Below, piece by piece: positions 1,757 to 11,722 of a DNA stretch of 11,722 bases (within the stretch, counting starts at the first letter, position 1; each line of letters starts with the position of its first letter). The notes under the pieces are model-generated. The model did no database searches. It was not told where the DNA came from and worked only from the letters and a program-made list of their open reading frames with translations. The DNA is from Streptosporangiaceae bacterium (GTDB lineage Bacteria; Actinomycetota; Actinomycetes; Streptosporangiales; Streptosporangiaceae), in assembly GCA_030045215.1 (NCBI GenBank), contig JASIBJ010000192.1:1-11722 (forward strand). Direction: 5' to 3'. A program made the position numbers and the translations under genes.

Positions 1757-3175
1757 TCACGCCAGCACGGACGTGATCGCGCTCCGCAGGGCCGCGGGCA
1801 CGTCGGCCACGAGCTGGTGCTGGCCGTCGCGGACCACGTCCCGACCCCCGACAATCACGTCACGGACGTCCGCGGCGGTGGCACCGAAGATAACCGACTC
1901 CAGCGCGGTCCCCCGCACCGTGCCCGCGGTCCTTACCGAGTCCAGCCGCACCACGACCAGGTCGGCCATGGCGCCCGGCGCGAGCTGACCGGCGTCCGGC
2001 CAGCCCAGGCTTGCGTGCCCGGCCGACGTCGCTGCCGTCGCCAGCTCAGCCGCCGTGAAGTGACCCCGCTCCCGGCTGGCGAGCCGCTCGTCAAGCTCCA
2101 CCCGGCGGGCCTCCTCGAGCAGGTCGATCACGGCGTGGCTGTCGCTGCCAAGAGTCAGGGTCGCGCCCGCAGCGGCCAGCCCGCTGGCCGGCCCTATCCC
2201 GTCGGCCAGGTCGGCCTCGGTCGTCGGGCAGAAACATGCATGGCTGCGGCTCTCGCCGAGCAGCCGGATGTCGGGCCGGGTCAGGTGGGTAGCGTGCACC
2301 AGGCTGCTCCGCGGCCCAAGCGCGCCGGCCTCCTCGAGCACCGCAGCCGGAGTCGCGCCGTACGCGGCCAGGCAGGCCGTGTTCTCGGCGACCTGCTCGG
2401 ACAGGTGGGCGTGCAGCGGCGCCCCGTGGCGGTGCGACCAGCCGACGACGTCCGCCATCTGGGCGGGCGGCACGGCGCGCACCGAGTGGATCGCGGCGCC
2501 CGCTCTGGCGCCCGCCCCCAAGGTGCTGGTCTCATCCGCCCCCAGTGCCGCCATCCGCTCCGCCCAACGCGAGCTGTCGCCGTCGCCGAACCGCAGCTGC
2601 GGGCCGGCCAGTGGCAGCTGGGCTCCATCGTGGCCGAGCCCCCCGGCCAGATAACACGTGTCCAGCAGGGTGATCCGCAGCCCGGCTTCGGCGGCCGCCC
2701 GGACAAGCACGCGGCCCATCTCGTTCGGGTCCGCGTACGGCACGCCGCCCGGCCCGTGATGCAGGTAATGGAACTCGCCGACGCAGCTCACGCCGGCCAG
2801 GGTCATCTCCGCGTAGACCGCGCGGGCCAGTTCCAGGTAGTCATCGGGATCAATCCGCTCCGCTACCTCGTACATCCGCTCCCGCCACGTCCAGAACGTG
2901 CCTCGGGACGCCTGCGTTATCCCGCGCAGCGCCCGGTGGAACGCGTGCGAGTGCGCGTTCGCGAGCCCTGGCAGCGTCAGGCCCGGCAGCCGGATGGCTC
3001 CGGCGGGTATCTGAATGGCCTCGGGCGTGACGCCGCTGAACCGGTCCCCGGCCGCCTCGAGCAGGACGTTCGCGCGCAGGCCAAGCCCGGGCGACCAGGC
3101 CAACTCGGCCAGCCAGGCCCGGTCGGGCGCTACCTTGCCCGGCTCGCCGTCGCTCGCGGACCGCAGCCGACTCAC
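1757..3175 (-). CDS. hutF: Formimidoylglutamate deiminase (HutF)
   Basis: A 472-residue amidohydrolase-superfamily enzyme. HutF converts N-formimino-L-glutamate to N-formyl-L-glutamate and ammonia in the five-step histidine pathway. Metal-binding residues are visible: the H75-x-H77 pair in NAHSHAFHRALRG, H257 in LHAHLSEQ, and D345 in LGSDSHA. HSVRAVP (230-236) and NAHSHAFHRALRG are typical of HutF rather than of guanine or cytosine deaminases. An N-terminal beta-sandwich part and its C-terminal return (about 400-450, GAMADLVVV) flank the barrel. It is the last gene of the hut block. Its GTG start shares the bases GTGA with the stop of the upstream M20 gene, so the two are probably translationally coupled. 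No good Shine-Dalgarno is seen and the first 20 residues are atypical, so the exact start is uncertain, though no better one is evident. Confidence 0.93.
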   Translation of the reverse strand: MSRLRSASDGEPGKVAPDRAWLAELAWSPGLGLRANVLLEAAGDRFSGVTPEAIQIPAGAIRLPGLTLPGLANAHSHAFHRALRGITQASRGTFWTWRERMYEVAERIDPDDYLELARAVYAEMTLAGVSCVGEFHYLHHGPGGVPYADPNEMGRVLVRAAAEAGLRITLLDTCYLAGGLGHDGAQLPLAGPQLRFGDGDSSRWAERMAALGADETSTLGAGARAGAAIHSVRAVPPAQMADVVGWSHRHGAPLHAHLSEQVAENTACLAAYGATPAAVLEEAGALGPRSSLVHATHLTRPDIRLLGESRSHACFCPTTEADLADGIGPASGLAAAGATLTLGSDSHAVIDLLEEARRVELDERLASRERGHFTAAELATAATSAGHASLGWPDAGQLAPGAMADLVVVRLDSVRTAGTVRGTALESVIFGATAADVRDVIVGGRDVVRDGQHQLVADVPAALRSAITSVLA

Positions 3176-4383
3176 CGGCAGGCCAGATCCGCGAGCACCG
3201 CCGCCAGCGCGGTCACGCCCGCCTCGCAGTCGTCCGGCTCGGCGTGCTCGGCGGGCGAGTGTGAGACGCCGGTCGGGTTCCGCACGAATAGCATCGCGGT
3301 CGGAATCCGGGCCGCGAGGACCCCGGCGTCATGACCGGCACCGGTCGGCAGCAACGGCGCCTGCTGCCCAGCCGCGGCCAGCACCTCCTTGATCCGGTCT
3401 CGCAACGCCTGGTCGAACCGCACGAGCGGCGTGAACGACTCCTGCCGCAGCTCGAATCCGACTCCGTGCATGGCCGCCGCCTCCGCCGCGACCTCGCTGA
3501 CGGTCGCGACGACCAGGTCAAGCACGACCGCATCGGGTGCACGGGCGTCGAGCCAGGCGTGTACGGATGAGCTGATGGCGTTCGCCGCCCCGGGTTCGGC
3601 GATGACCTTGCCGAACGTGGCTAGCGCGCCGTGGTCGGCCGCCGCCTGCCTGGCTGCCAGCGCCGTGGCCGCGAACGGCAGCATCGGATCGCGGCGATCC
3701 CCCAGCCTGGTGGTGCCGGCGTGGTCGGCCCGGCCGGTGAAGTCCAGCCGCCAGCGCCCGTGCGGCCATATCCCGTCCGCCACGCCGATCGCGGCCCGCA
3801 GGCCCGCGAGCGCGCTGCCCTGCTCGATGTGCAGCTCCACATACGCGCCGATCCGGCCGAGCAGTTGCTCGTCCGGGCCGATGAGCGCCGGATCGCGGCC
3901 AGCGGCCTGCATGGCCGAGGCCAGGCTGATCCCGTCCTGATCACGCAGGTCCCGCGCCACGGCCGGATCCATCAGGCCGGTCAGCAGCCGGCTGCCGAGG
4001 CAGGCTACGCCGAACCTGGCCCCCTCCTCCTCGGTGAACGCCGCCACGCCGATCGGCCTAGCCGGGCGGAACCCCTCGTTCCGAAGCTGAGCGATCGCAG
4101 CAAATGCCGAGACGATCCCGAGCGGCCCGTCAAATGCCCCGCCATCGGGAACAGAGTCCAGGTGGCTGCCGGTAATGACGGCCGCCTCACCGGGCCCGCC
4201 CCACCACGCCCACATGTTGCCGTTGCCGTCGCAGTCGGTCCGCAGGCCCAGGCTCGTGGCGTTCCTGACGAACCAGCCGCGGCAGGCGGCATCGGGCTCG
4301 GTCCATGAATAGCGCCGGTAGCCGCCGGTGAACTCGTTCCGCCCGACCGGCAGCAGTTCGGCCCACAGCTCGGCAAAGCTCAT
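3172..4383 (-). CDS. M20-family amidohydrolase of the allantoate amidohydrolase/N-carbamoylase type, probable N-formylglutamate hydrolase of the hut operon
   Basis: A 403-residue zinc/manganese amidohydrolase of the M20 hydantoinase/carbamoylase family, usual length about 400-420. Dinuclear-metal and catalytic residues can be placed: H74 and D85 in GSHLDSVPDGGAFDGPLG (72-89), the E118-E120 run in FTEEEGARFG, H185 in ELHIEQG, and H375 in GVSHSP. GRADHAGTT (217-225) belongs to the lid/dimerisation domain and GAGHDAG (348-354) to the substrate site. The family is usually annotated as allantoate amidohydrolase. Lying between hutU and hutF and overlapping hutF by 4 nt, it more likely hydrolyses N-formyl-L-glutamate to formate and glutamate, the HutG step, since no other deformylase is present here. 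That role is inferred from position only. It starts at ATG 23 nt after hutU, with a weak ribosome-binding site. Confidence 0.9.
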   Translation of the reverse strand: MSFAELWAELLPVGRNEFTGGYRRYSWTEPDAACRGWFVRNATSLGLRTDCDGNGNMWAWWGGPGEAAVITGSHLDSVPDGGAFDGPLGIVSAFAAIAQLRNEGFRPARPIGVAAFTEEEGARFGVACLGSRLLTGLMDPAVARDLRDQDGISLASAMQAAGRDPALIGPDEQLLGRIGAYVELHIEQGSALAGLRAAIGVADGIWPHGRWRLDFTGRADHAGTTRLGDRRDPMLPFAATALAARQAAADHGALATFGKVIAEPGAANAISSSVHAWLDARAPDAVVLDLVVATVSEVAAEAAAMHGVGFELRQESFTPLVRFDQALRDRIKEVLAAAGQQAPLLPTGAGHDAGVLAARIPTAMLFVRNPTGVSHSPAEHAEPDDCEAGVTALAAVLADLACR

Positions 4384-4406
4384 CGCGATGCTTTCGGCAC
4401 GGGCCG

Positions 4407-6083
4407 TCAGTTGTCCGCGCGCATCGGCACCCGCACGCCGCGTTCGGCCGCAACCTCGCCCGCGCGCTCGTAGCCGGCGTCCGCATGCCGGATCACGCCC
4501 GTGCCCGGATCGTTGGTCAGCACCCGCTCCAGCTTCTGCCCGGCCAGATCCGTGCCATCCGCCACGCAGACCTGGCCCGCGTGGATCGACCGGCCGATAC
4601 CGACGCCGCCACCGTGGTGGATGCTCACCCAGGTCGCCCCGGACGAGGTGTTGAGCAGGGCGTTCAGCAGCGGCCAGTCCGCGATCGCGTCGCTGCCGTC
4701 GGCCATCGCCTCGGTCTCCCGGTACGGCGACGCCACCGACCCGCAGTCGAGGTGATCGCGGCCAAGGACGATCGGAGCCTGCACCTCGCCCCCCCGCACC
4801 AGCTCATTGAACCGCTCGCCGGCGAGGTTCCGCTCGCCATAGCCCAGCCAGCAGATCCGGGCGGGCAGGCCCTGGAAGTGCACCTTCTCCCTCGCCATCC
4901 GGATCCACCTGGCGAGCGCCTCGTTCTCGGGGAACAGGTCGAGGATCGCCGCGTCGGTGGCCGCGATGTCGGCCGGGTCGCCAGACAGCGCGACCCAGCG
5001 GAACGGGCCCTTCCCCTCGCAGAACAGCGGACGGATATAGGCGGGGACGAACCCGGGAAACTCGAACGCGCGGTCGTAGCCGGCCAGCTGCGCCTCGCCG
5101 CGGATGGAGTTGCCGTAGTCGAAGACCTCGGCGCCCGCGTCCTTGAACCCGACCATCGCCGCGACGTGGGCGGCCATCGATTCGCGCGCGCGGCGGGTGA
5201 AGCCGTCCGGATCCTCGGCGCGAAGCGCGGCCATGTCCTCGAACTTGACCCCGCGGGGCAGGTAGGTGAGCGGGTCGTGTGCGGATGTCTGGTCGGTCAC
5301 CACATTGATCGGCGCGCCCATGCGCAGCAGCTGGGGCACCAAATCCGCGGCATTGCCCAGCAGGCCGATGGACAGCGCCTCGCCAGCCCGCGCCGCGGCC
5401 TCGGCCCTGCGGACCGCGTCGTCGACGTCGGCGGCCTCGACGTCGAGATACCCGTGCTCGATGCGGCGCCTGATCCTGGACGGGTCACAGTCGATGCAGA
5501 GGGCCACGCCGCCGTTCATCGTCACCGCGAGCGGCTGGGCACCGCCCATCCCGCCCAGGCCCGCTGTGAGCGTGATCGTGCCCGCCAGCGAGCCGCCGAA
5601 GCGCTTGGCCGCGACCGCGGCGAACGTCTCGTAGGTTCCCTGCAAGATGCCCTGGGTACCGATGTAGATCCACGATCCGGCTGTCATCTGGCCGAACATC
5701 GTGAGTCCCTCGGCCTCGAGCCGCCGGAATTCCTCCCAGGTCGCCCACTGGGGAACCAGGTTGGAGTTGGCGATCAGCACCCGCGGCGCCCACTCGTGGG
5801 TGCGGAACACGCCGACCGGCTTGCCCGACTGGACCAGCAGGGTTTCGTCGCCCTCAAGCTGCTGCAGCGACGACACGATGGCGTCAAACGCGGCCCAGCT
5901 GCGCGCGGCCCGCCCCGATCCGCCATAGACGATGAGCTGGTCGGGGTGCTCGGCAACCTCGGGGTCGAGGTTGTTCATCAGCATCCGCATGGCCGCCTCT
6001 TGCGGCCAGCCCTTGCAGGCTAGGCCCGTCCCGCGCGGCGCGCGCACTGGCCTGGCACCCGGCAGCCTGGGCCCGTCGGTCAT
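4407..6083 (-). CDS. hutU: Urocanate hydratase (urocanase)
   Basis: A 558-residue urocanase, the normal size for the family (about 550-560). It adds water to urocanate using tightly bound NAD+, giving imidazolone propionate in the cytoplasm. Hallmarks are [12 protein letters not shown] (35-46), [11 protein letters not shown] (53-63), the NAD-binding [12 protein letters not shown] (175-186), ARICWLG with C411 at the position of the reactive Cys410 of the Pseudomonas enzyme, [13 protein letters not shown] (441-453), and HHGGGVGIG (489-497). The ATG at 6083 is chosen because GAGGGAG lies six bases upstream and the protein then begins like known urocanases. The frame stays open for another 78 codons upstream, but that part overlaps the alcohol dehydrogenase gene and resembles no urocanase. 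It is the first gene of hutU-M20-hutF and lies 64 nt downstream of the fae operon on the same strand. Confidence 0.97.
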
Positions 6084-6147: not shown

Positions 6148-7323
6148 TCAGGCGCCGCTGACCGCCTCGAGGATCGCGACCAGGTCCGCCGCCGATGGCT
6201 GCCGCGGAGCGTTTGCCAGCACCTCGTCATCGAGCGCGTCCGCCGCGATATACCGGAAGTCCTGGCGCCTGATTTCGAAGTCAGACAGCCGCTTGTCCAT
6301 CCCCACGGACGCGGCAAGCGCGGCGACGGCCCGCACCGCGGCGGTCGCGTTTGTCCCGGCCGGCACCGCCGTGTCGCCGGCGCCGAGCGCGAAGGCGACG
6401 TCCGCCAGCCGCGACTGAGCGACGGGCAACGTGAACCGCAGTACCTCGGGCAGCACCATCGTCAGCGCGACCCCGTGGGCGACGTCGAACCGCCCTCCGA
6501 TGGCGTGTCCGATCGCATGGCAGGCACCGAGTCCGGTCGAGGCCATCGCCACGCCCGCCATGTGTGCTGCCAGGAGCATCTGCCCTCTGGCCTCGCGGTC
6601 CGAGCCGTCCGCCACCGCCCTCGGCAGGAATTCACCGATCATCCCGATGGCCTGTAGCGCGATCCCGGCCGACCAAGGGCTGGCCCGGACCGAGAGGTAG
6701 GACTCGAGCGCGTGCGTCAGCGCGTCCATACCCGTCGCCGCGGTGGCGTCCGCCGGCAGTCCGACGGTGAGCTCGGGGTCGAGGATGGCGGCGGCCGGCA
6801 TCGTGGAGGCATGCCCGACGTAGAACTTACGGTGCTGGTCCTCGTCGGTGACCACGCCGAACCCGTTGGTCTCGGCCCCGGTGCCTGCCGTCGTCGGCAC
6901 AGCCAGCAGCGGCAGGGCCGGGCTGGCGAACTCGGCCCGGTAGTCAAGCTGACGGCCGCGCTGCGGGTTCACCGCCGCCAGCGCGATGCCTTTCGCCGCG
7001 TCGATCGGCGAGCCGCCGCCGACCGCGACCACGACGGGCCGCTCATTAAGCAAGCCGGCCGCCGCCACCGCTCCGGCGGCGACATCCGCAGTAGTGGGAT
7101 TCGGGTGCACGCCGCTGAACACGGCTGCCGACTGGTCCGCGTCGGCCAGCACCTTGAGCACCTGGGCGATCACCGGCGTCGCTGCCAGCGCCGCATCGGT
7201 CACGAGGAACACGGCCGCGCCACCGGCCGCCGTCACCAGCGCAGGCAGCCTGGCGATTGCCCCGGCGCCAAAGTATGCCGTCGGTGTGGCGCCGATGGTG
7301 AGCTCGGACGGAACGGGCAGCAC
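6148..7323 (-). CDS. Iron-containing (group III) alcohol dehydrogenase family protein
   Basis: A 391-residue Fe-ADH-family oxidoreductase with an N-terminal nucleotide-binding domain and a C-terminal helical metal-binding domain. Nucleotide-binding [11 protein letters not shown] lies at about 102-112, and PTTAGTGAE at about 143-151. The metal set D-x3-H, H, H is present in [10 protein letters not shown] (D200, H204) and [19 protein letters not shown] (H269, H283), the same spacing as lactaldehyde reductase FucO. The family reduces aldehydes or oxidises alcohols; members include 1,3-propanediol, lactaldehyde and methanol dehydrogenases, and related maleylacetate reductases, so the substrate is open. 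The GTG at 7323 is preferred over the GTG two codons upstream because AAGGGAG is correctly spaced only for it. That leaves 2 nt after the stop of the beta-hydroxyacid dehydrogenase. It is the last gene of the fae operon. Given Fae in the operon, an alcohol substrate that yields formaldehyde or a hydroxyaldehyde is possible but unproven. Confidence 0.92.
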
Positions 7324-7325
7324 GG

Positions 7326-8243
7326 TCACTCCCTTGGCAGGCGCAGCGGCGTGGCGGTCAGGTCTTCCAGCAGCCTGATCGGCAGCATCTCGCCGCCATG
7401 GTCACCGTACTGGGCCCTGGCCCGGCGGTAGATCTGCTCGACCAGCGCGCTGACTTCGGCCGGCACACCGGTCTGCCGGGCCAGGTCGACGGCCAGGCCC
7501 AGGTCCTTGCAGGCCAAAGCCAGCGCGAACGAGTCGTCATAGTCCCCGCGCTCCAGCACCGCCAGCACGTCCCGCTCGAGGAAGTTGCTCGCTGCCGGGC
7601 TGGCCAGCAGGCACTGGCGCAGCATGGCCAGGTCGACGCCGGCCCGCACGCCGACGGTGAGAACCTCCGCTGTCGCGACGAGGTGACCGAACCACAGCAG
7701 GTTGATCATCAGCTTGACCGTGTAGCCTGCCCCGTTCCCCCCGACGTGCAAGATGCGGTCGGGATCGCCCATCGCCTCCAGCAGCGGGAGCGCTCGGTGA
7801 AAGTCGCCGGCACTGCCACCGACGAAGATCTGCAGGGATCCGGCCCTGGCGCCGACCGCCATCCCGCTCACCGGGGCGTCCAGCACAGCGATCCGGCGAG
7901 GGCCCGCGAGCGCCCGGACCCGATCGGCCACCGCCGGCACGCTGGTCGACATGTCCACCCAGATTGCGCCGGGCTCAAGCCCGTCCAGGAGGCCGTCCGC
8001 GCCGAGGAGCACATCCGCCACCTGCTCGGGCGCGGGCAGCATCGTGATGACGACCTCACGGCCCGCGCCGGTCGCGCGCGGCGACCCGGCCCAGGTCGCG
8101 CCGGCCGCCACGAGCCCGGATGCGGCCTCAGGTCGCTGGTCGTGCACAACCAGGTCGTGGCCGGCGGCCAGGATGCGCGCGCTCATCGGCGCGCCCATGT
8201 GACCTAGCCCGATGAAACCTACTCGCACCGCTGCCACATCCAC
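7326..8243 (-). CDS. NAD(P)-dependent beta-hydroxyacid dehydrogenase (3-hydroxyisobutyrate dehydrogenase family)
   Basis: A 305-residue two-domain protein, close to the usual 290-300. The N-terminal Rossmann domain opens with GFIGLGHMGAPMS (9-21), the dinucleotide-binding signature of this family. The substrate-binding stretch is DAPVSGMAVGARAG (122-135), usually DAPVSGG. The catalytic lysine is K177 in GAGYTVKLMINLL, followed by N181. CKDLGLA (245-251) is the conserved C-terminal motif. Relatives oxidise 3-hydroxyisobutyrate or reduce tartronate semialdehyde, succinic semialdehyde or similar 3-oxo acids, and the substrate cannot be read from sequence. The Met of the DAPVSGM variant lies next to the substrate pocket. 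The gene starts with GTG one base after the dehydratase stop and ends 2 nt before the Fe-ADH start, so it is an internal operon gene. A start two or five codons later (also GTG) is possible. Confidence 0.93.
   Translation of the reverse strand: MDVAAVRVGFIGLGHMGAPMSARILAAGHDLVVHDQRPEAASGLVAAGATWAGSPRATGAGREVVITMLPAPEQVADVLLGADGLLDGLEPGAIWVDMSTSVPAVADRVRALAGPRRIAVLDAPVSGMAVGARAGSLQIFVGGSAGDFHRALPLLEAMGDPDRILHVGGNGAGYTVKLMINLLWFGHLVATAEVLTVGVRAGVDLAMLRQCLLASPAASNFLERDVLAVLERGDYDDSFALALACKDLGLAVDLARQTGVPAEVSALVEQIYRRARAQYGDHGGEMLPIRLLEDLTATPLRLPRE
7329..7335 (-). promoter_or_regulatory. Shine-Dalgarno site deciding the start of the Fe-ADH gene
   Basis: On the minus strand this reads AAGGGAG, five bases (TGACC, including the stop of the preceding gene) before GTG at 7323. 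The alternative GTG at 7329-7327 overlaps the last base of this site, leaving no spacer, so it is unlikely to be used. Confidence 0.65.
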
Positions 8244-8244
8244 G

Positions 8245-9354
8245 TCATGCCTGGGCCCATCGGGTCACGGCGTCCGCATCGATCTGCCCGCCGAGGCCCG
8301 GCCGCTCCGGCACCCGGACGGAGCCGCTGGCGTCGGTCAGGACCGGTTCGGCCAGGAAGAAGTCGCGCCGCTCGGGCGTCCACCCCGGAGGGTCGAAGGG
8401 GAACTCCAGGAACGGCCCGCCGCCGACCCCGGCCGCCACGTGCAGGTTGGCCAGCAACCCAAGGCCGTTGGTCCAGGTGTGCGGGCTGAACCAGCGGCCC
8501 TCCAACAGCGCCACCTCGGCAACGGTGCGCGCCCGCAGCATGCCGACCGCGAGCACGACGTCCGGCTGCACCACATCCAGCGCACCGGCGGTCAGCGCCG
8601 CAAGCAGCTCCGGCACGGTGCGGGCCATCTCGCCGCCTGCCACGCGCACGCCCGCCTGTTCCCTGACCATCCGCATTCCGGCCAGGTCGGCGGCGGGCAG
8701 TGGTTCCTCCAGCCAGAGCACGCCCAGCTCGGCCAGCTCGGCCGCGAGCCGACGCACGGTCTGCGCGTCGAGCGCAGGGCCAATGTCTCCCGGCATCCGC
8801 CACCACTGGTTCAGGTCGACCATGATCTCCATCGCGTCGCCGACCGCATCCCTGGCCGCGCGGACGCAGGCCGCACCGGATGGCACGTCGTCGCGGCTGA
8901 TGCGGATCTTTACGGCCCTGAAGCCCGCCCCGCGCGCTGCCAGCACCGCGTCGGCAGCCGTGGATGGGCTCTTGAGCTCGGCGAATGACGCGTAGGCGGG
9001 CAGGCGGTCGAGCGCGCCGCCGAACAGGGCAGCGACCGGCTGGCCGCAGGCCTGGCCGGCGATGTCCCAGAGCGCCGCCTCGAACGGCCAGTACCGGCCG
9101 GCGTGGAAGCTGATCGACTCGAGCGTCCGCACCTGATTGACGATCCGCAGCGGGTGGGTGCCGACGAACAGATCCGCGAAGGCCTCGAAGCCGTCCATCG
9201 TGTCGCCTGACCCGTAACCCACGAGGCCGGCGTCGGTATCGACCCGGACCAGGGTCGCGTCAAAATAGCGCCGCGGTACCGGATCCCAGGCCGCGTTGAG
9301 CGGCGGGTCGAGCGGCAGCCGCATCCGGCTAAGCCGGATGGAGGTTATCTTCAC
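8245..9354 (-). CDS. Mandelate racemase/muconate lactonizing enzyme family protein (enolase superfamily), probable acid-sugar dehydratase
   Basis: A 369-residue enolase-superfamily enzyme with an N-terminal capping domain (about 1-120) and a modified TIM barrel. Metal ligands are D180 in VDLN, E216 in LEEP and E242 in GGEMA. Acid-base residues fit the mandelate racemase subgroup: K149-I-R151 at the end of barrel strand 2, a D265/H292 dyad in QPDV and SPHTW, and E317 in EFP. Enzymes of this subgroup abstract the proton alpha to a carboxylate, most often to dehydrate sugar acids to 2-keto-3-deoxy acids. Racemases use the same dyad, so dehydration is an inference. The KxR form instead of KxK is noteworthy. 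Its GTG start overlaps the fae stop as GTGA, and its stop lies one base before the next gene, so it is the second gene of a tight catabolic operon. Confidence 0.93.
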   Translation of the reverse strand: MKITSIRLSRMRLPLDPPLNAAWDPVPRRYFDATLVRVDTDAGLVGYGSGDTMDGFEAFADLFVGTHPLRIVNQVRTLESISFHAGRYWPFEAALWDIAGQACGQPVAALFGGALDRLPAYASFAELKSPSTAADAVLAARGAGFRAVKIRISRDDVPSGAACVRAARDAVGDAMEIMVDLNQWWRMPGDIGPALDAQTVRRLAAELAELGVLWLEEPLPAADLAGMRMVREQAGVRVAGGEMARTVPELLAALTAGALDVVQPDVVLAVGMLRARTVAEVALLEGRWFSPHTWTNGLGLLANLHVAAGVGGGPFLEFPFDPPGWTPERRDFFLAEPVLTDASGSVRVPERPGLGGQIDADAVTRWAQA

Positions 9355-9863
9355 GGTGCCTGGTAGTACGGGTTGTACGGCTGCTGCCTGGCCGCCTCGA
9401 CCGCATCCAGATCTGGCTCTGAGCTGACCGCGGCCAGCAGCGCGCCCTTCGTCGCGGCGCGGTTGTTCGCGTACACCAGGTCAGCATCCCGGGCCGCCGG
9501 GTTCACCCAGACAGCCGCAATGAGCACGGACTGGGCGGCCGCCGCTGCGGTGACGATGCCGTCGGCGACTGCGTCGGCAACTCCGCCGGCTACCCCGGCT
9601 TGCGCAGCCCCCCAGGTCAGCGTCGCGTGCTCATCGCTGGCGATGGCCGCTTTGTTCACGAACAGCGTCAGCGGCCGGACCGGAGTGCCGGGCCGCAGCA
9701 CCGCCACGAACGGCGTGTGGCCGGCGCTCGGGGTCGCGAGCGCGGTGGCCCACGCGGTCCCGACCGGCCCGGCGCGATGGCCGAGGACGACGTTGATGTG
9801 CGCCGCCTCGGCGCCCTCGCCGACGAAGCTCTCGCCGATGAGCACTTCTGACGAGTCCGCCAC
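9351..9863 (-). CDS. Formaldehyde-activating enzyme (Fae) family protein
   Basis: A 170-residue protein matching the full length of Fae, which in methylotrophs and methanogens condenses formaldehyde with tetrahydromethanopterin to methylene-H4MPT. Family landmarks in order: GEGAEAAHI (15-23) with H22 at the active-site His, GHTPFVAVL (48-56), a P-x-TL-x-VNK stretch ending at K71, GAAQAGVAGGVADAVADGIV (85-104) containing Q88, and NNRAATKGAL (133-142). Differences from Methylorubrum Fae as I recall it: Asp two residues after the His is Asn24, Thr two after the Lys is Ala73, and GPAQHG reads GAAQAG. The GTG at 9863 is chosen because AGAAAGAGG lies seven bases upstream and gives the normal Fae N-terminus; the longer frame to 10031 adds an unrelated leader. 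It is the first gene of the four-gene operon. Family assignment is strong, but the pterin or other partner is unknown because actinomycetes usually detoxify formaldehyde through mycothiol. Confidence 0.9.
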   Translation of the reverse strand: MADSSEVLIGESFVGEGAEAAHINVVLGHRAGPVGTAWATALATPSAGHTPFVAVLRPGTPVRPLTLFVNKAAIASDEHATLTWGAAQAGVAGGVADAVADGIVTAAAAAQSVLIAAVWVNPAARDADLVYANNRAATKGALLAAVSSEPDLDAVEAARQQPYNPYYQAP

Positions 9864-9870
9864 GAGTTGG

Positions 9871-9879
9871 CCTCTTTCT
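9871..9879 (-). promoter_or_regulatory. Shine-Dalgarno site deciding the fae start
   Basis: On the minus strand this reads AGAAAGAGG, seven bases before GTG at 9863. It supports the 170-residue Fae and argues against initiation up to 56 codons upstream. Confidence 0.7.
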
Positions 9880-9944: not shown

Positions 9945-10043
9945 GGCATGGCGGTGACAGTATTCCGCAGCCGCGTGCGAAGCGGCGCGGGCGGCCGCCT
10001 GTCGCGCCGGAATCTGCCACCTGACAAGCACGTGAAAACGGTC

Positions 10044-10087: not shown

Positions 10088-10115
10088 TTCCGGTCTGTTG
10101 TGTTGCCTAAGTCGC

Positions 10116-10121
10116 AAGGGG
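10116..10121 (+). promoter_or_regulatory. Shine-Dalgarno site favouring a TTG start for the permease
   Basis: AAGGGG lies five bases before TTG at 10127. No comparable site precedes the alternative GTG at 10100, and starting at the TTG gives the usual short N-terminus of DppB-type permeases. Confidence 0.55.
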
Positions 10122-10126
10122 ATCCC

Positions 10127-11080
10127 TTGGCGATCTACCTGCTGAGGAGACTCGGGCTCGCGGTCATCACGCTCTGGCTGCTCAGCGTGATCATTTTTTT
10201 CGCGGGCCAGGTGCTACCCGGCGACCCGGGGCGAGCGATCCTCGGCCCGTTCGCGACGCAGAGCGCGGTCAACAGCCTGAACCGGCAGCTCGGTGTCGAC
10301 CGGCCGTTGCTCACCCAGTACTGGTCCTGGATCAGCGGAGCCGTTCACGGCAACCTCGGCATCTCCTACCAGTACCGAACCCCGGTCGAGCCGATGCTGG
10401 CGTCGGCTCTGGCGAACTCGGCCAAGTTGGCGATCTTCGCGCTCGTCCTACTCGTTCCGCTCGGCATCATCGGCGGAGTGATTGCCGCGCTCTACGTTGG
10501 CCGGCCGGTCGACCGGGTCATATCGCTGACAGGCCTGTCGGCCGCCACTGTGCCTGAGTTCGTCTCCGGCATCGTGGTGATCGTCATCTTCGCCGACGGG
10601 CTCAAGGTCCTGCCGTCAAGCGCGAACGCGGCTCCCGGCTCGTCCTTCGCCACTCAGTTGCGGTACTTGATCCTCCCGGTGATACCGCTGGTGTTCGAGT
10701 TCTTCGGCTACATAGCGCGGATGGCGCGGGCCGGCACGATCGAGGCCCTCGAGTCCGATTACGTCAGGACGGCAACGCTCAAGGGCCTCAGGCGTCACGT
10801 GGTGATCGTGCGTCATGTGCTGCGCAATTCTCTGCTGCCGACGATAACCGTGATCGCAACCCAGATCGGATATCTGATCGGCGGCCTGGTCGTTGTGGAG
10901 ACGCTGTTCAACTATCCAGGCGTTGGCCGGCTCATCTTCGTGGCCGCTCAGAATAAGGACTTCCCGATGCTCGAGGCCGGCGTGCTGACGATCGGCGCGA
11001 TCTATATGACCGCCACCCTCGTCGCCGACCTGCTCAGCACCTGGCTGAACCCACGGCTTCGGACGGCGGTAGCACCGTGA
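10127..11080 (+). CDS. ABC transporter permease, dipeptide/oligopeptide (DppB/OppB) type
   Basis: A 317-residue inner-membrane permease with about six hydrophobic segments. The first is at 9-28, followed by the typical VLPGDPG stretch and the periplasmic LGVDRPLLTQY (55-65) and HGNLGIS (74-80). The cytoplasmic EAA-like loop, which docks the ATPase, is about 209-238 (ESDYVRTATLKGL then RHVLRNSLLP). ETLFNYPGVGRL (258-269) is a strong DppB-family hallmark. The family forms a heterodimer with a DppC-type partner and imports peptides, nickel, oligosaccharides or other solutes delivered by a binding protein. The TTG start follows a good ribosome-binding site; GTG at 10100 would add nine residues. 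Its stop overlaps the start of the next permease as GTGA. It is divergent from the fae operon, so its solute may be that operon's substrate; this is inferred from position. Confidence 0.93.
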   Translation: MAIYLLRRLGLAVITLWLLSVIIFFAGQVLPGDPGRAILGPFATQSAVNSLNRQLGVDRPLLTQYWSWISGAVHGNLGISYQYRTPVEPMLASALANSAKLAIFALVLLVPLGIIGGVIAALYVGRPVDRVISLTGLSAATVPEFVSGIVVIVIFADGLKVLPSSANAAPGSSFATQLRYLILPVIPLVFEFFGYIARMARAGTIEALESDYVRTATLKGLRRHVVIVRHVLRNSLLPTITVIATQIGYLIGGLVVVETLFNYPGVGRLIFVAAQNKDFPMLEAGVLTIGAIYMTATLVADLLSTWLNPRLRTAVAP

Positions 11081-11722
11081 CCGAGATCCTGGTGGCGCCG
11101 CTCACCGAAGCCGCCAGCGGGGAGCTCCCATCGTGGCGGCTGCTGCTGCGGCGGCCGGCCTTCATCGTCGGCCTGCTCATCCTGGCCTTCTGGGTTGTGT
11201 GCGCAGTGTTCGGCACGTCCTTCGCCCCGCATAACCCCTACGCCCAGCAACTGCTGGCGACCAACCAGCCGCCGTCGGCAGCGCACTGGTTCGGCACCGA
11301 TCAGCTCGGCCGCGACGTCTTCTCCCGCGTCCTCGTCGGATCGCGAAGCATCCTGATAGTGGCGCCGCTGGCCACGCTGCTTGGCACGGTCCTTGGCACG
11401 GCCCTCGGCCTGGCGCTTGGCTACCTGGGCGGCGTCGTCGACGCGATCGTCGGCCGTCTGGTCGAGGCCGTGCTCGCGGTTCCGGCCGTCATCGTTGCCT
11501 TCTTGTTCATCGTCGCGGTGGGGGCGTCTGCGGCGAGCGAGGTCCTCGTCGTCGGCTTCGTCTTCACCCCGCTCATCGCGCGCACAGTCCGGTCGGCCGT
11601 GCAGGTGGAGAGCCAGCTCGACTACCTGCCGGCTGCCCGCCTGCTCGGCGAGGGTCGGCTCCGGGTGATGTTCGTGGAGATTCTGCCGAACGTCATGCCG
11701 ACCGTGCTGGTCGAGTTCACCG
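11077..11722 (+). CDS. ABC transporter permease, dipeptide/oligopeptide (DppC/OppC) type, 3' end outside window
   Basis: About 215 codons are visible before the right edge; the family usually has about 280-300. A cytoplasmic N-terminus leads to a membrane segment at about 29-47. HWFGTDQLGRDVFSRVLVGSR (70-90) is the DppC/OppC signature. Further hydrophobic segments lie at about 92-116, 131-150 and 155-169. The EAA-like loop begins at about 182 (LDYLPAARLLGEG, then EILPNVMPT), with Pro at 185 where many relatives have Val or Ile. The GTG start is embedded in the stop of the preceding permease (GTGA), so the pair is probably translationally coupled and forms one heterodimeric channel. ATPase and solute-binding genes presumably follow beyond the window. 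Confidence 0.92.
   Translation, partial: MTEILVAPLTEAASGELPSWRLLLRRPAFIVGLLILAFWVVCAVFGTSFAPHNPYAQQLLATNQPPSAAHWFGTDQLGRDVFSRVLVGSRSILIVAPLATLLGTVLGTALGLALGYLGGVVDAIVGRLVEAVLAVPAVIVAFLFIVAVGASAASEVLVVGFVFTPLIARTVRSAVQVESQLDYLPAARLLGEGRLRVMFVEILPNVMPTVLVEFT

Follow-up and report, generated by a model that had tools for sequence, protein, structure and literature searches.

A divergent homologue of the formaldehyde-activating enzyme heads a conserved, putatively catabolic operon in actinobacteria and may act without tetrahydromethanopterin

An 11,722-nucleotide contig of a Streptosporangiaceae bacterium (JASIBJ010000192.1, assembly GCA_030045215.1; this whole stretch is called the window) encodes a protein of the formaldehyde-activating enzyme (Fae) family. 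Fae is known to accelerate the dehydration step in the condensation of formaldehyde with tetrahydromethanopterin (H4MPT). The window protein lies in a clade separate from canonical Fae, and it probably has a different job because the genomes of its relatives show no sign of making methanopterin. Relying on these observations, on the family and fold of the protein and on the conservation of its operon, we propose tentatively, at a little less than an even chance, that it is a Fae which needs no H4MPT and was recruited to carbonyl-amine chemistry of the Fae type, serving the breakdown of a compound that is taken up by the cell and probably resembles betaine.

A complete Fae-family gene

The reading frame is complete on the minus strand, from a GTG start at 9863 to a stop codon ending at 9351. 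An upstream start at 10031 is also possible, but the start was placed at 9863 because the six best homologues (87–90% identity) are 170 aa long and give 100% query coverage counted from that position. Pfam PF08714 (Fae) matched with 176.1 bits against a cut-off of 27 (E = 6.7e-52, profile positions 1–157 of 159), and NCBIfam TIGR03126 with 150.2 bits against an equivalog cut-off of 118.05 (E = 5e-44, 155 of 160 profile positions). Among 7998 candidates scored, 5604 were homologues at E ≤ 0.001. The closest solved protein by sequence is Methylorubrum extorquens Fae (1y5y, E = 2.6e-26), and the AlphaFold2 model (mean predicted local distance difference test score, pLDDT, of 92) aligned with the structure 1y60 of the same enzyme at a template modelling (TM) score of 0.92 and 36% identity, the first non-Fae match having an E-value of 0.02. 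Both the frame and its assignment to the Fae family are confirmed, so that the preliminary description of this DNA, which had reported a full-length Fae-family protein at exactly these coordinates, is borne out; the profiles keep the protein inside the family. Its claim that Fae is the first gene of an operon holds on this strand, because the next gene starts at 9354 and overlaps Fae by 4 bases.

TIGR03126 scored two canonical proteins at 252–255 bits and three proteins of the window's clade at 123–150 bits. The cut-off of this equivalog_domain model (118 bits) therefore lets the clade in, and the name is passed on by JGI and plasmid annotation.

A clade apart from canonical Fae with altered surroundings of the catalytic positions

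A set of 111 Fae sequences was obtained from 134 by removing copies identical over residues 11–120. In a quick maximum-likelihood tree, the ten canonical rows occupied their own branch, with a length of 2.21 and a Shimodaira–Hasegawa-like approximate likelihood ratio test (SH-aLRT) support of 98, which falls to 71 once a long-branched second Fae from Caballeronia joins the canonical group. The closest tree neighbours of the window protein were the actinobacterial, operon-linked copies L001 and L002 (SH-aLRT 94, just below the tool's 95 mark). Because 49 of the 108 inner branches were drawn open and 18 were starred, only the canonical split and the nearness to L001 and L002 were used. The window Fae clade is separate from canonical Fae. 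The very long-branched second Fae lies on Caballeronia grimmiae plasmid p1 (L119:63-596), at 31% identity and beside tellurium-resistance-type genes.

Alignment of 100 non-canonical with 10 canonical sequences (numbered from Met = 1; L119_2 was excluded from both classes) showed that His22, which we take to be the catalytic (general-acid) histidine, is kept in all 100 non-canonical proteins, as are Gly10, Thr66, Lys71, Gly85 and Gln88; Glu11 is present in 99 and Asn134 in 91. The window protein itself shares Gly10, Glu11, Gly15, His22, Thr66, Lys71, Gly85, Gln88, Asn134, Pro150 and Pro165 with canonical Fae. In contrast, 18 positions are switched, each class having one residue in at least 90% of its members but a different one from the other class. 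The switches include, with counts out of the 100, D24N (99), N45P (100), F49H (98), F69V (95), Q79H (99), F84W (97), G117A (100), F119W (97), H121N (90, the other 10 having Asp), W122P (99), Y135R (92) and H164N (98). At Asp24, Asn45, Phe49, Phe69, Phe84, His121, Trp122 and Tyr135, each present in at least nine of the ten canonical rows, the window protein differs in all eight cases. Judged from its residues, the clade's Fae looks active, with altered surroundings of the catalytic positions.

Methanopterin markers in the genomes of relatives

The loci compared were the best 80 of 126 confirmed relatives in species genomes; by title, 79 are from Actinomycetota and one, L040, belongs to a delta proteobacterium. 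For 79 of these loci (L025 was left out) the host genomes were searched in two sets, one of 49 mostly isolate genomes and one of 30 mostly metagenome-assembled genomes (MAGs), the second including the nearest relatives, L001, L002 and L003 (88%, 86% and 78% identical to the window Fae). Neither Mch nor Ftr (the controls for which were archaeal only) nor RFAP synthase was found over cut-off in any of the 49 or the 30 genomes, one sub-threshold RFAP synthase match of ~20 bits appearing in each set. All three models detected methanogen control genomes; among bacterial controls, the Mch model detected four of four and the RFAP synthase model one of one (162 bits against 113.5). PF09176 (MtdB) matched in none of 15 genomes, but no control responded to it and it was not used as evidence. 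Exactly one Fae was present in each genome of the first set, with a stop-free frame in all 49. These results suggest that the clade probably works without H4MPT, which for the window's own host is inferred from its relatives, and they lend no support to an unusual pterin route, one of two explanations offered in the preliminary description.

Fae was present in 17 of the 396 genomes sampled from the phylum (G004, the centre, and G026 were known carriers beforehand), so the rarity implied earlier was overstated. Mch was present in one, G091 (L132, E = 3.6e-114), which is not among the 17. A mycothiol-dependent formaldehyde dehydrogenase was over cut-off in 32 of the 49 genomes, whereas all ten Microbacterium genomes of that set lack it; the two proteins thus neither always occur together nor simply replace each other.

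Canonical-type Fae loci on plasmids provide a reference for gene neighbours. Among eight, mch adjoins fae in four (Phyllobacterium pT1293c, Azoarcus, Thiodictyon and Azospirillum), it does not lie within 3–6 kb in three other annotated loci, and the eighth record is unannotated. Absent mch neighbours alone therefore say little, since three of seven annotated canonical-type loci have none nearby. A Methylocystis iwaonis plasmid (L124:6001-7185) carries two tandem fae genes with no mch within 6 kb.

That the window protein is a canonical Fae, its H4MPT pathway having been overlooked or being too divergent, or its cofactor being taken from neighbours, is very improbable. The incompleteness of MAGs, the passing of the TIGR03126 equivalog cut-off, the one actinobacterial genome with Mch and the three canonical-type loci lacking mch are consistent with it, but it is opposed by the three markers missing from all 79 genomes, by the location of the sole Mch outside the Fae carriers and by the separate clade with its altered conserved positions.

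A conserved neighbourhood in Actinomycetota and on proteobacterial plasmids

Gene context was counted at 81 loci (the 80 and the window) on the same strand within 9.5 kb, with hits of at least 80 bits or, for aldehyde dehydrogenases (ALDHs), at least 150 bits. The counts are lower bounds, given short contigs and the divergent, hence uncounted, enzyme genes of L012, L014, L015 and L018. An enzyme resembling 3-hydroxyisobutyrate dehydrogenase (HIBADH) was present in 59 loci, and an OpuAC binding protein, its ATPase and any ALDH in 57 each. An MR_MLE protein was found in 46, an iron-containing alcohol dehydrogenase (Fe-ADH) in 42, a short-chain dehydrogenase/reductase (SDR) in 20, an FAD oxidase in 16, an FGGY kinase in 15, a HalD-like oxygenase in four and an aldo/keto reductase (AKR) in one. 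Counted on either strand, an IclR regulator accompanied 60, DppB nine and a sugar-type major facilitator superfamily (MFS) transporter six.

Two gene orders were distinguished: importer-Fae-MR_MLE-ALDH1-HIBADH-FeADH-ALDH2 (type I, for example L035) and importer-Fae-HIBADH-ALDH2-SDR-FAD oxidase-FGGY (type II, for example L055). Between L035 and four type II loci, the identities were 71–73% for Fae, 68–75% for the OpuAC binding protein and 73–77% for ALDH2, and HIBADH was 77–81% identical in three of the four, with no separate call in L047; within L035, ALDH1 resembles ALDH2 at no more than 36%. These identities indicate that both types have the importer and core in common and differ in the accessory module. 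Synteny extends from Microbacteriaceae to Nonomuraea. In the window and its closest relatives, type I is reduced: the transporter is of the Dpp type, and neither ALDHs nor IclR lie nearby. Antisense open reading frames (clusters 13 and 14) look like gene-calling artefacts and were left out of the maps.

Fae matches were also found in 62 plasmid records. The Streptomyces clavuligerus locus contains an oxidoreductase, a betaine-type importer, fae, a HIBADH-like enzyme and succinate-semialdehyde dehydrogenase (SSADH), and that of C. grimmiae an ABC importer with an NMT1-type binding protein, fae, AKR, SSADH and MFS. The unannotated records of Burkholderia arboris and Caballeronia SBC1 contain fae, AKR, ALDH and MFS, and an Ensifer plasmid AKR, fae, SSADH and a Dpp-type importer. 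The Fae-AKR-ALDH core thus lies on four proteobacterial plasmids (two from Caballeronia and one each from Burkholderia and Ensifer) at ~50% identity. Against the TIGR01780 SSADH cut-off of 646, the Caballeronia and Ensifer ALDHs score over (699 and 681) and the actinobacterial ones under (540 and 523). The minimal set in common comprises an importer, Fae, HIBADH or AKR, and an SSADH-like ALDH. The Fae variant is a widespread subfamily with proteobacterial relatives, not a one-organism curiosity.

These data bear on two alternatives. We give almost no credence to the gene being a horizontally acquired passenger with no role in the operon: only its patchy distribution across the 396 genomes fits, whereas the long-range synteny, the recurrence of the core on Burkholderiales and Ensifer plasmids and the uninterrupted frames all oppose it. 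A formaldehyde or aldehyde sensor or regulator, non-catalytic or weakly catalytic, is improbable, though less so. Regulatory and sensing roles have been suggested for Fae-like proteins (PMC11748545, PMC3728764); Fae2/Fae3-type copies of methylotrophs either show no growth phenotype or are regulated separately (PMC5023235, PMC3728764), and growth defects were missing in Methyloversatilis fae3 mutants (PMC5023235) and in Methylotuvimicrobium alcaliphilum fae1-2 or fae3 mutants (PMC11748545), according to excerpts of these papers. However, His22, Thr66, Lys71 and Gln88 are invariant in the non-canonical sequences, and the gene sits among enzyme genes, with an IclR-type regulator already near it in 60 of the 81 loci, the window not among them.

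The imported compound and a proposed pathway

The best NCBIfam match of the OpuAC binding protein is OsmF, below cut-off, and among solved proteins it matches engineered sensors for acetylcholine and nicotine best, followed by the osmoprotectant binders OsmF and ProX and, lower down, EgtUC (ergothioneine). Of the 56 cluster-4 proteins, the 38 with lengths of 290–345 aa were aligned. Tyr99, Tyr145, Tyr214 and Phe229 (L035 numbering) are the same in all 38 and Arg184 in at least 95%; ProX has an aromatic cage and an arginine to which these residues presumably correspond. From the solved matches and these conserved residues, the ligand in lineages with the OpuAC importer likely has a quaternary-ammonium or similar cationic group together with a carboxylate. 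To our knowledge, none of the known pathways for betaine, carnitine, dimethylsulfoniopropionate, hydroxyproline-betaine, sulfolactaldehyde, polyols or betaine lipids appears to account for Fae.

The substrate class, the reaction and the order of steps that we infer are as follows. A small polar compound would be imported, in most sampled relatives by the glycine-betaine/choline-type ABC transporter. Fae would act as the first enzyme, the retained His22 and neighbouring Lys71, Thr66 and Gln88 performing Fae-type chemistry; an early step is suggested by its position directly after the binding protein and by the minimal sets. In this step, water may be reversibly added to or removed from a nitrogen-bound aldehyde carbon, with the imported compound or its first product replacing H4MPT, so that a carbonyl compound would be made or freed. 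This compound could then be reduced or oxidised by the HIBADH-like enzyme (AKR in the four proteobacterial loci) and the SSADH-like enzyme. The remainder may pass through module A, consisting of alcohol dehydrogenase, aldehyde dehydrogenase and MR_MLE dehydratase (the window type, minus the aldehyde dehydrogenase), or through the interchangeable module B of SDR, FAD oxidase and FGGY kinase. It is conceivable, although we hold this somewhat more loosely than the recruitment itself, that evolution has turned the Fae fold into a new carbonyl-amine lyase or condensing enzyme, which would open an undescribed catabolic pathway for a betaine-like compound, spread from Actinomycetota to Burkholderiales and Rhizobiales.

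Several points weigh against recruitment to such chemistry. Only one reaction is known for Fae, with which PMC11748545 agrees. Fae-like proteins can keep some formaldehyde activity, since fae1-2 of M. alcaliphilum complements partly: excerpts of the same paper report that this Fae-like second copy made an M. extorquens fae mutant less sensitive to methanol on plates but did not restore growth in liquid, and that fae3 does not complement the mutant (PMC11748545). The marker searches covered the genomes of relatives only, and the Ftr controls came from archaea. In the window lineage the core is incomplete, both ALDHs, IclR and the betaine importer being absent beside Fae. Moreover, some Fae neighbourhoods have other enzymes in place of the core. 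A HalD-like (PF23169) 2-oxoglutarate oxygenase lies near or directly before Fae in L050, L063, L067, L077, L107 and L109–L114 (L109 profiled), in actinobacterial genomes of 1.4–3.2 Mb. Fae accompanies a zinc-dependent alcohol dehydrogenase (Zn-ADH) of the N,N-dimethyl-4-nitrosoaniline/mycothiol-formaldehyde type in L115, with an unprofiled frame of like length in the same place in L116–L118; an acyl-CoA dehydrogenase and a luciferase-like protein in L041–L043; and an agmatinase-family ureohydrolase (L104 profiled) with MR_MLE in L103, L104 and L106, L103 also having a sodium:solute symporter and an ALDH. Since several of these neighbours could produce formaldehyde or act on it, they speak for a plain formaldehyde role. 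The L042 locus, from a MAG labelled Bifidobacterium breve, hardly differs from the Actinobacteria bacterium IMCC26256 locus (L043), and the label is probably wrong.

The main rival accordingly has Fae still trapping formaldehyde, released by the catabolic substrate, and handing it to tetrahydrofolate (H4F) or another common amine. We regard this as unlikely, although a serious contender. It accords with the kept His22 and neighbours, with the HalD-like, Zn-ADH, luciferase-like and acyl-CoA dehydrogenase-like partners, with the window Fe-ADH, whose best solved matches are NAD-dependent methanol dehydrogenases followed by 1,3-propanediol and lactaldehyde enzymes, and with the folate-linked transfer that has been suggested, alongside sensing, for the Fae groups lacking a defined function (PMC11748545). 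However, no demethylase or oxygenase is among the profiled genes of both main operon types, formaldehyde needs no HIBADH- or SSADH-like core partners, most of the isolate-rich genome set already has the mycothiol-dependent dehydrogenase, and formaldehyde is said to condense with H4F spontaneously (PMC8879981).

Recruitment to carbonyl-amine chemistry is the reading we prefer. The preliminary description had offered, as its second explanation, a Fae recruited to another carrier or carbonyl compound; such a recruitment would agree with the separate clade, with a protein that is altered yet keeps its catalytic positions, and with the conserved catabolic neighbourhood. If the proposal is true, many proteins named '5,6,7,8-tetrahydromethanopterin hydro-lyase' act on another substrate, and if the clade does not use methanopterin, both this name and 'formaldehyde-activating enzyme', which database models give to the clade, mislead surveys of genomes and metagenomes. 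With the conserved core operon, the role of Fae-like proteins outside the H4MPT pathway becomes testable in culturable strains.

The window operon and its flanking genes

The Fae operon of the window continues with three enzyme genes (Table 1), which appear tightly coupled on account of their overlaps and spacing: 4 bases are shared at 9354 and at 7326/7329, and one base separates 8245 from 8243. In the MR_MLE protein, Lys149, Asp180, Glu216, Glu242, Asp265 and His292 are identical in all 31 aligned rows (355–430 aa, from 38 loci), the window among them. None of the MR_MLE, HIBADH-like and Fe-ADH proteins scored over any NCBIfam equivalog cut-off. Divergent from Fae, the DppB-like permease is possibly the importer of this lineage, because L001, L002, L003 and L076 place it likewise.

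A hut-type set follows 64 bases past the Fae operon (1757-6083, minus strand), comprising urocanase (hutU, likely start 6083), an M20 amidohydrolase and formimidoylglutamate deiminase (hutF); hutH and hutI were not among the profiled window proteins. These genes were taken as neighbours and not parts, because they stand behind Fae only in L001 and L002, a comparison limited by the contigs of L003 and L076, which end near the Fe-ADH gene. Among the nine profiled window proteins there was no methanopterin protein besides Fae, as had been noted before.

Table 1 Features of the window around the Fae gene
Feature	Coordinates	Strand	Basis and remarks
Fae-family protein, 170 aa	9351..9863	-	Profiles, tree, model; first gene of the operon
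Shine-Dalgarno-like AGAAAGAGG	9871..9879	-	Seven bases upstream of the Fae GTG
MR_MLE enolase-superfamily dehydratase/racemase	8245..9354	-	Profiles; overlaps the Fae stop by 4 bases
Beta-hydroxyacid dehydrogenase, 3-hydroxyisobutyrate / tartronate-semialdehyde reductase family	7326..8243	-	Profiles; core partner of Fae
Iron-containing (type III) alcohol dehydrogenase	6148..7329	-	Profiles, solved matches
Dipeptide/nickel-type ABC permease (DppB-like)	10100..11080	+	Profiles; divergent from Fae
Second ABC permease (DppC-like)	11077..11722	+	Position and cluster; overlaps the first, runs off the window

Comparison with known systems

No description of this operon or of an actinobacterial Fae function was found in open-access titles and abstract openings, a body of text in which subscription papers mostly do not figure. 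The window protein matches Fae models only and so differs from Gfa, the glutathione-dependent formaldehyde-activating enzyme, a family unrelated to Fae. What the two have in common is a similar name and the idea of aiding a spontaneous formaldehyde adduct (PMC8879981). Considered as a prior account, PMC5209427 was set aside, the excerpt concerning a glutathione-dependent protein. In Amycolatopsis methanolica, the H4MPT pathway was not detected, according to an excerpt of PMC8879981.

The full-length fold is common to the window protein and canonical bacterial Fae (EC 4.2.1.147; M. extorquens AM1, 1y5y/1y60), but the canonical enzyme has mch neighbours in four of seven annotated loci, whereas the window clade has a catabolic operon, sampled hosts lacking H4MPT markers, the 18 switches and lower TIGR03126 scores. 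With archaeal Fae and Fae-Hps the window protein has the Fae domain in common (the NF009833 match being below cut-off) and it is without the Hps domain. Archaeal Fae is 50–51% identical to M. extorquens Fae (PMC11748545), as against about 36% for the window protein.

Actinomycete Fae-like proteins and groups lacking a defined function are already present in a published phylogeny, which divides Fae over bacteria and archaea, actinomycetes included, into five groups and, in the excerpt drawn on here, defines functions only for groups 1 and 5 (PMC11748545). The Fae-like groups 2–4 of that phylogeny resemble the window Fae in being Fae-like with no function defined. The Fae-like proteins described in PMC11748545 and PMC5023235 are, as far as their excerpts show, extra copies in methylotrophs, whereas that of the window clade is the only Fae in each of the 49 genomes of the first set.

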